Shown here: one piece after another, positions 1,295 through 44,046 of the stretch
Layout of the letters: each line of letters begins with the position of its first letter
How positions within the stretch are numbered: the first letter of the stretch is position 1
Assembly: GCA_946539175.1 (NCBI GenBank)
Contig: CAMNHH010000002.1
Span: 1 to 44,963 of the forward strand
DNA from: an uncultured Clostridia bacterium
Lineage (GTDB): Bacteria > Bacillota > Clostridia > Oscillospirales > Oscillospiraceae
DNA: 44,963 nucleotides
Reading direction: 5' to 3'
Program-made: the position numbers and the translations under genes
Notes under the pieces: model-generated
Told to the model about the DNA's origin: nothing
The model's database searches: none
Seen by the model: the letters and a program-made list of their open reading frames with translations, nothing else

Positions 1295-1464
1295 CGGGGG
1301 ATGCGCTGTGCGATACGCCGCCTCATCCGCCCCAGTGCCAGCGCGATCAGCGCCGAGAGCCCGGTGGGCTCTCGCGGGCAGTCGCGGACGGCTAAGCCGG
1401 GAGCGACAAGCCATGCCTTTTGGCGGCTTCGCACCGGGGCACCTTCCCCGCAAGGGGAAGGCAA
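1295..1464 (-). repeat. Composite palindromic interspersed-repeat-like element between rpmE and hflX
   Basis: Contains CCTTCCCC-GCAA-GGGGAAGG and GAGAGCCC-GGT-GGGCTCTC hairpins. Its outer ends resemble short interspersed repeats I recall from Oscillospiraceae. Non-coding, directly upstream of the hflX RBS. Confidence 0.6.
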
Positions 1465-1501
1465 AGAAAAAAGCCCGCACCGAATCCAGGTGCGGGCTTT
1501 G
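1465..1501 (-). terminator. Rho-independent terminator of rpmE
   Basis: Minus strand AAAGCCCGCACC-TGGATTC-GGTGCGGGCTTTTTTC: long GC stem followed by T tract, just after the rpmE stop. Confidence 0.85.
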
Positions 1502-1841: not shown

Positions 1842-3134
1842 CTATATGTTGGGGCACCGGCCCGGCCAAACCCACACCCGAAGGCGTTCCTCCTCCCCGG
1901 CCGGGCGGGGGCCCGCGGCGGAAAAGAGGCTGTAGAGATCCGAGGCCCGGGTCTCCAGGGCATAGTATCCGGCGTCGGCGGGCCGCTCCCCGGCGTTCAC
2001 CAGGGGGAAGCGGGCCTTCATCTCCCGCAGCAGGGCCCGGCCCCGGCGGTTGAAGCCCAGGATGCGGGCATAGGGGGCCGGACGGGCCAGATCCTCCGCC
2101 CGCAGGCCCAGGACCGCGCAGAGCAGCATTCTCTGAATCCGGGTACGGGTGTAGCGCTTGGATATGGTGCTTTGGAGAATCTCCTCCGTGGAGCCGCGGC
2201 TGCGGCAGTTCTTCATCAGCTTGGACCAGAGGCCCTCGGCGCCGAAGGGAAGCTGCCGGAAGGCCTCCTCCGGCAGGGTTCGGAGGATGGCCAGGACCGC
2301 CCGTTCCCCCGTCCGCCAGCTATGGACGGGGGCGTTTTCGTACAGAGCGTGAAGGCAGGATGGGACGGCGGCGTGCCAGGACGGCGTTTCTTGAAGGGAA
2401 CGTGGGGACAAGCATTGCTTGTCCCCCTGCCGGGCCTCCAGGCCGTGCTTTGCCTCCGGCAAATGGCATTCGTTCCGAATGCCGGACGGGCAACGCAGGT
2501 CCCTGCCGGCGGAGATCAGGGCTGCTCGCAGGGCGGTGGCGGAGGGGGCCTCGGGGTCCAGGGCTTCGGAATGGTAGTCCCCGGGGCGGTGGATGGGCAT
2601 GGGGCGCATGGGGCTGCTCTGGCGGAGCAGGGCCTTCAGGTATTCCACGGCCAGAATGTCGTTGGGGGAGGACAGGCCCTCCCCTGCCCCCAGGGCCGTC
2701 AGAGCCCGCTGCCGGGCGGCGGCGTAGGAACAGCCGCCCTCCAGCTCCCGGCGCAGCAGACCGTCGAAGGCCGGGTCCAGGTTGGCCTCGGCGCTGCGGC
2801 GGAGCAGCTCAAGCTTCTCCGTCTCCGTGCCGAAGCAGAGCCAGTCGCAGCCGAGGGCGGTGAGGACCCGGACGCCTCCCGCGGCAAAGCCCTCCGCGGA
2901 GGACAGGGCGGCGGTCAGAGGCAGCTCCAGCACCAGATCCGCCCCGCAGCGCAGGGCGGCCTCGGCCCGCAGGCGCTTGGGAAAGACGGCGGGCTCACCC
3001 CGCTGGACGTAGTTTCCGCTCATCAGGCAGACGATGGCGCAGTCCTCCCCCCCTTGCTCCCGGGCCAGCCGGAGCTGCCGCAGGTGGCCCCTGTGGAAGG
3101 GGTTATATTCGCATATGATTCCAGTCGTTCCCAT
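1842..3134 (-). CDS. tmcAL: tRNA(Met) cytidine acetate ligase (TmcAL/YlbM family) carrying a repeat-derived insertion
   Basis: GTTGIICEYNPFHRGHLRQLRLARE nucleotidyltransferase-like motif, VQRGEPAVFPKRLRAEAAL, SSPNDILAVEYLKAL, SATALRAAL. Start at MGTTGIICEYNPFH. Confidence 0.9.
   Translation of the reverse strand: MGTTGIICEYNPFHRGHLRQLRLAREQGGEDCAIVCLMSGNYVQRGEPAVFPKRLRAEAALRCGADLVLELPLTAALSSAEGFAAGGVRVLTALGCDWLCFGTETEKLELLRRSAEANLDPAFDGLLRRELEGGCSYAAARQRALTALGAGEGLSSPNDILAVEYLKALLRQSSPMRPMPIHRPGDYHSEALDPEAPSATALRAALISAGRDLRCPSGIRNECHLPEAKHGLEARQGDKQCLSPRSLQETPSWHAAVPSCLHALYENAPVHSWRTGERAVLAILRTLPEEAFRQLPFGAEGLWSKLMKNCRSRGSTEEILQSTISKRYTRTRIQRMLLCAVLGLRAEDLARPAPYARILGFNRRGRALLREMKARFPLVNAGERPADAGYYALETRASDLYSLFSAAGPRPAGEEERLRVWVWPGRCPNI
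2382..2498 (-). repeat. In-frame palindromic repeat segment inside tmcAL (39 codons)
   Basis: Four consecutive inverted repeats at 2404-2483, including GGGGACAAGCA-T-TGCTTGTCCCC (2404-2426), TTTGCC-TCC-GGCAAA (2449-2463) and GGCATTCG-TTC-CGAATGCC (2465-2483). Encodes LRCPSGIRNECHLPEAKHGLEARQGDKQCLSPRSLQETP. Confidence 0.7.
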
Positions 3135-43956: not shown

Positions 43957-44023
43957 GGGCTGCTCACCCTTCGGGTAAGAGCAGCCCCTACGCTGTGGTA
44001 CGACGGACAGGCAATGCCTGTCC
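43957..44023 (-). repeat. Palindromic repeat element upstream of the J-like/TPR gene
   Basis: GGGCTGCTC-ACCC-TTCG-GGT-AA-GAGCAGCCC hairpin (43957-43987), GTAGGGGC on the minus strand, and GGACAGGCA-A-TGCCTGTCC (44005-44023), the same GACARGCA-TGCYTGTC core as in the tmcAL insertion. Confidence 0.65.
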
Positions 44024-44046
44024 CTGCATTCCCTGATCCCTGATCC

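Follow-up and report, generated by a model that had tools for sequence, protein, structure and literature searches.

An in-frame REP dimer inside tmcAL, and different repeats at the same site, across a genus of Clostridia

Introduction

REPs are named as extragenic elements; in-frame copies are known, mostly as separate cases. Intragenic GTAG REPs that preserve the reading frame, dimers included, have already been published (Di Nocera, De Gregorio and Rocco, 2013; PMC3733652). Such copies occur in genes of DNA repair and of tRNA modification (pseudouridine synthases), and in one case, recB of Xanthomonas, different REPs lie at about the same site (PMC3733652). Clostridia are absent from the main text of that paper. 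What moves is the REP doublet, and the RAYT gene has its own REPs on either side (Bertels and Rainey, 2011, PMC3116915; TnpA-REP survey, PMC6006769); in-frame REPs have been reported even within tnpA-REP genes (PMC6006769). The Rickettsia palindromic elements (RPEs; Ogata, 2000, reviewed in PMC2229807) are palindromic sequences of 105-146 bp that lie in frame within conserved proteins, and an RPE-bearing guanylate kinase was found to be translated and active (PMC2229807).

Here, we describe a palindromic insert in the tmcAL gene of an uncultured Clostridia bacterium. The stretch of DNA analysed, hereafter the window, comprises positions 1 to 44,963 of contig CAMNHH010000002.1 (assembly GCA_946539175.1), and the site was compared across the genus to which this host belongs.

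Results

The tmcAL gene (tRNA-Met cytidine acetate ligase; positions 1842-3134 of the window, minus strand) is an intact ORF of 430 aa that hosts the repeat. Within it, a head-to-head REP dimer, or REPIN, occupies positions 2402-2506 (minus strand), where its 105 bp form 35 codons in frame and code for an extra loop. The original prediction had described an in-frame repeat of ~117 bp (39 codons) at 2382-2498; the in-frame repeat was recovered, and its limits are better drawn as given here. The three palindromes listed there, GGGGACAAGCA-T-TGCTTGTCCCC, TTTGCC-TCC-GGCAAA and GGCATTCG-TTC-CGAATGCC, are all present, and the tmcAL ORF runs unbroken through every one of them, so that the frame is preserved across the insert as had been claimed.

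Read on the coding strand, the element consists of a REP, a GGCATTCG-GAA-CGAATGCC hairpin, a TTTGCC-GGA-GGCAAA hairpin, a spacer and an inverted REP, the REPs at its ends being of the GTAGGGACRAGC...GCYYGTCC type. The 5' REP of the coding strand (GCAGGGACCTGCGTTGCCCGTCC; 2484-2506, minus strand) is decayed, differing from GTAGGGACGAGCGTTGCTCGTCC at 4 of 23 positions; it is intact in the orthologs of three congeners (G004, G005 and G016). Both linker hairpins (2449-2483, minus strand) are present in the DNA fold. The 3' inverted REP, GGACAAGC-AAT-GCTTGTCC followed by CCAC (2402-2424, minus strand), has an intact stem and a single mismatch to the consensus. The tags of the host copy have drifted, one to GCAG and the other from CTAC to CCAC, and GTAG is kept by the ortholog copies. 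Compared with shuffled sequences, the 105-nt element folds strongly both as DNA (z = -5.3) and as RNA (z = -4.3), none of 200 shuffles being as good.

A repeat scan of the whole window was swamped by codon-bias similarity. A search of the window for the core GACARGCA-N-TGCYTGTC, with up to 2 mismatches allowed, located it at 2407-2423 and, in agreement with the earlier claim, also in an intergenic repeat at 44006-44022, with 0 mismatches and 0.05 expected. By motif search, positions 43960-44028 (unstranded) hold intergenic REPs of the related subfamilies GGGCTGCTC...GAGCAGCCCCTAC and GGACAGGCAATGCCTGTCCCTGC, which appear as two adjoining inverted REPs of other subfamilies in an intergenic-looking gap. 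A different palindrome, CACCTTCCCCGCAAGGGGAAGGC, lies in the gap between hflX and rpmE (window positions 1400-1475), and a repeat like it, CCTTCCCC/GGGGAAGG, is found within the tmcAL genes of G006 and G007 (PSPLAEGAE / PSPLGEGAE, LPLKGKAF).

The tmcAL product matched the nucleotidyltransferase family NF010191 of NCBIfam (E = 1.6e-87), its equivalog score of 294 being below the cut-off of 360. By phmmer, it matched B. subtilis TmcAL (5y0p; E = 6e-46) as well as T. maritima TmcAL structures, and the invariant TmcAL residues are retained. The best Foldseek matches of its AlphaFold model (mean pLDDT 91) are TmcAL structures (5y0r, 5y0t, 5y0o and 5y0n), with E = 2e-29 for T. maritima TmcAL 5y0r. 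By predicted fold and conserved residues, the host gene thus qualifies as TmcAL, the predicted former of ac4C34 on elongator tRNA-Met. It has its family and fold in common with the B. subtilis and T. maritima proteins (PDB 5y0n-5y0t). The B. subtilis enzyme is, however, shorter by ~34 residues between two blocks aligned by phmmer (chain 236-277 versus query 209-284), which bears out the earlier statement that it lacks this length.

The AlphaFold model puts the repeat-encoded insert as a disordered loop on an otherwise confident TmcAL fold: the loop is of low confidence, with pLDDT values of 57, 43, 48 and 63 for the insert blocks, and lies between helices 199-212 and 252-256. Simple pairwise dN/dS estimates (NG86) between the host and insert-bearing orthologs range from 0.22 to 0.33 for the TmcAL core and indicate that purifying selection acts on it in insert-bearing lineages.

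We then compared how far PSATALR lies from the next (A/C)VP motif in the 21 genomes of the genus that carry the gene, host included. The distance is 8-12 residues in nine genomes and 20-114 residues in the other 12. Orthologs free of the insert had been sought as a check of the original prediction; they exist in B. subtilis and among congeners of the host. The clean indel of ~39 aa that had been anticipated holds in this respect and is otherwise approximate: the insert has 35 codons, and some close orthologs carry a diverged homologous copy of it.

All 12 long forms have open, in-frame inserts, and they are built from different REPs or from other palindromic repeats. The 105-nt element is common to the host (G000), G004, G005 and G016, where it lies at an identical codon offset and is 71-85% identical in DNA sequence, and it therefore looks inherited; the copies of G004 and G016 retain GTAGGGACGAGCATTGCTCGTCC. 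A different, intact 69-nt dimer with a perfect REP...iREP pair is present in G010. Solo REPs are found in G002 and G021 (decayed in the latter), four REP units together with three HSERSEES-type repeats in G019 (L146), and non-REP repeats in G003 and G007. In G006, a REP precedes another palindromic repeat. On a tree built from three genes, the short forms correspond to the early branches, together with G001, G012 and G014. This placement makes an early occupation followed by turnover plausible, but support is low at several nodes (0.09-0.71) and does not fix how many events took place.

A second repeat family, coding for HSERSEESASPV (TCATTCTGAGCGnAGCGAAGAATCC), lies in frame at the same sites, in tmcAL of G019 (L146), G016 (L153) and G004 (L143) and in the NspC genes L267-L270. 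No mention of the HSERSEES peptide was found in the open-access papers searched. Elsewhere in the protein, the tmcAL product of G016 (L055 / L153) shows two further in-frame insertions, around ELEESRMYAHIGPPSENHQPSV and ADDVAQDVRRYSYGF.

Besides TmcAL, in-frame palindromic inserts are found in the conserved proteins CitX-CitG, NspC and LanM. In the CitX-CitG fusion of the host (L002), the CitG match is interrupted by an intact 141-bp dimer, which is read in the same frame (CRDEPCSSGIRNEC...DKQGLSLH). This site is recurrent: six genomes have 21-23 residues there, and ten have 37-78. The carboxynorspermidine decarboxylase of the host (NspC, L005) contains a REP pair; in many congeners the corresponding variable loop contains REPs or else HSERSEES repeats, and in some it has non-repeat linkers. 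The host LanM (L114) carries one REP. Of twenty more long ORFs over REP peptides in the genus that were compared with Pfam, most had no domain. Most such ORFs are probably spurious, and insertion into real genes would therefore be uncommon. Some candidate carriers were rejected: the UvrD/PcrA sequence (L250) holds no REP, the REP of a GltX-like ORF (L241) lies upstream of the matched domain, and that of MutS (L014) lies only upstream of the likely start.

Searching the host genome (2.1 Mb in 212 contigs, 75% complete) with the pattern GTAGGGRCRRGC-N2-6-GCYYGYCC gave 32 strict copies, versus 0 for a reversed-pattern control. In 22 congeners, whose genomes, like most of those compared, are mainly draft and incomplete, the counts range from 0 to 226 (13-226 in 16 of them); the count is 0 in 14 of 16 genomes from other genera. 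The copies appear to lie mostly outside recognisable genes. Other copies in the host genome, on which the original prediction depended, were found outside genes as well as in one or more further genes, and a 44-nt part of the linker (2449-2492) has three other host copies at 93-95% identity (G000 C157, C142 and C5). Head-to-head pairing of the REPs, with GTAG outside, is common, and such pairs amount to 36 distinct strict dimers of 48-203 nt among the loci examined. At the level of sequence, the features of these repeats are those of GTAG-tagged REP dimers (PMC3733652), alias REPINs (PMC3116915). One host locus (G000:C127:5629-5655) is a double-foot REP, in which a single hairpin bears GTAG...CTAC; this form has been described for RAYT subclass 2.4 (PMC6006769).

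Candidate movers are present in four sister species, as RAYT-like ORFs that are 162-180 residues long, contain a PNHxHL motif and lie between head-to-head GTAGGGGCGAGC REPs (L192, L193, L201 and L203). The best NCBIfam family for these is NF047646, REP-associated tyrosine transposase (E = 6e-17 to 9e-20), with scores of 62-71 bits (59-71 bits across the RAYT hits) against an equivalog cut-off of 80. For the one sister-species RAYT tested, the best PDB match is E. coli TnpA-REP 4er8, the matches to this structure being weak (E = 2e-5 and 2e-3). The RAYT-like ORF of the host itself (C84, L194:1-600) adjoins gyrA, is framed by another GTAG subfamily, GTAGGGGCCGATGC, and matches NF047646 below the family cut-off. 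The 75%-complete genome of the host yielded no RAYT that is specific to the GTAGGGACRAGC subfamily, nor did the Y1_Tnp profile (PF01797) yield any RAYT above cut-off there. Since the framing is seen in sister species and the host ORF is framed by another subfamily, the link between RAYT and this REP subfamily is documented for the genus rather than for the host. Near gyrA of G018 there is likewise a RAYT-like gene, accompanied by an extended array of related repeats (L196).

Discussion

Taken together, we consider it very probable that the stretch within tmcAL is an intragenic REPIN, probably inserted in trans by a RAYT and tolerated as a translated disordered loop, at a site that later became a landing pad. 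In this view, a GTAG-tagged REP pair from a family dispersed between the genes of this genus landed in tmcAL, at a point that separates the conserved PSATALR helix from the domain after it, and a RAYT (HUH/Y1) transposase probably moved it there. We propose that two properties let the insert persist, a length divisible by three and one open reading frame; it would then be translated as a surface loop that the enzyme tolerates. In the ancestors of part of the genus, the loop may have become occupied in a single event or in a few, and REPs and other palindromic repeats would afterwards have been added, replaced and left to decay. Movement of the tmcAL element by a RAYT, its translation and its neutrality are what we infer.

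Alternatively, the insert could be a MITE that owes its movement to some unrelated transposase (e.g. DDE), or a sequence spread by recombination only. The extra hairpins in the linker would fit such an origin, as would those same-site inserts that derive from non-REP palindromic families (HSERSEES, PSPLGEGAE), but the GTAG tag, the 8-bp stems, the head-to-head dimers and the RAYT genes framed by the same REPs make it improbable. Slightly less probable still is co-option, in which RNA hairpins would tune tmcAL translation or the loop would alter tRNA binding. The element does have a strong RNA fold, and one stem is changed on both sides among orthologs with pairing kept (TTTGCC/GGCAAA versus TTTGTC/GACAAA); however, this paired change may merely mark repeat subfamilies, the length and content of the insert vary widely among congeners, nine of which have none, and the 5' REP of the host copy has decayed. 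A hairpin-rich insert within a conserved enzyme might also suggest that the segment is bypassed in translation, or removed from the mRNA or the protein, but this is very hard to credit, as the inserts in 12 genomes are all in frame and stop-free, which would be needless if they were skipped. It is just as implausible that the fragmented draft (212 contigs) produced an assembly artefact, given the homologous inserts at the same codon in independent sister-species assemblies.

Returning to a RAYT-inserted REPIN, one may further speculate that the REPINs of this genus have been selected to be codable, with one long open frame (CRDxxCSS...DKxxLSL) letting them colonise genes as well as gaps, and that the TmcAL, CitX-CitG and NspC loops are shared permissive landing pads. 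Among dimers outside these three genes, 24 of 30 are open in this frame versus 14.7 +/- 2.7 (maximum 23 in 200) for a shuffled linker; the result is only a lead, because the sample of dimers is small, the copies are related and part of them were picked for open frames. We regard this extension as rather unlikely.

The GTAG REPs previously described (PMC3733652) share with those of our genus the GTAG tag, the short stem, the small loop, the head-to-head dimers and the in-gene copies. In contrast to them, a single site varies here genus-wide, this is seen in three enzymes, and unrelated palindromic repeats land there too. As in REPIN/RAYT systems, the unit is a REP doublet and, in four sister species, RAYT-like ORFs are framed by REPs, although the tmcAL linker has two extra perfect hairpins and the host belongs to a Clostridia (Oscillospiraceae-like) genus. 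A search of open-access papers for REPINs in Ruminococcaceae-type hosts returned no match. The suggested resemblance to RPEs holds for lifestyle, that of an in-frame palindromic insert in a conserved protein, but not for family membership, the elements being REPINs with likely RAYT movers in the genus. To our knowledge, no dedicated mover of RPEs has been described.

What is added here is the extension of RAYT-framed GTAG REPs to a Clostridia genus, together with recurrent landing sites for several repeat families in three enzymes, as far as precedents in the open-access literature go. Annotators and modellers should be cautious with such loops, which are derived from repeats. Within one genus, three enzymes offer a graded series at single sites, from empty through solo REP, intact dimer and decayed dimer to stacked repeats, and it thereby becomes possible to trace and test how selfish DNA arrives in proteins, turns over and is tolerated there. 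Sister species with different repeats at the same site constitute a natural experiment on selfish DNA within proteins.
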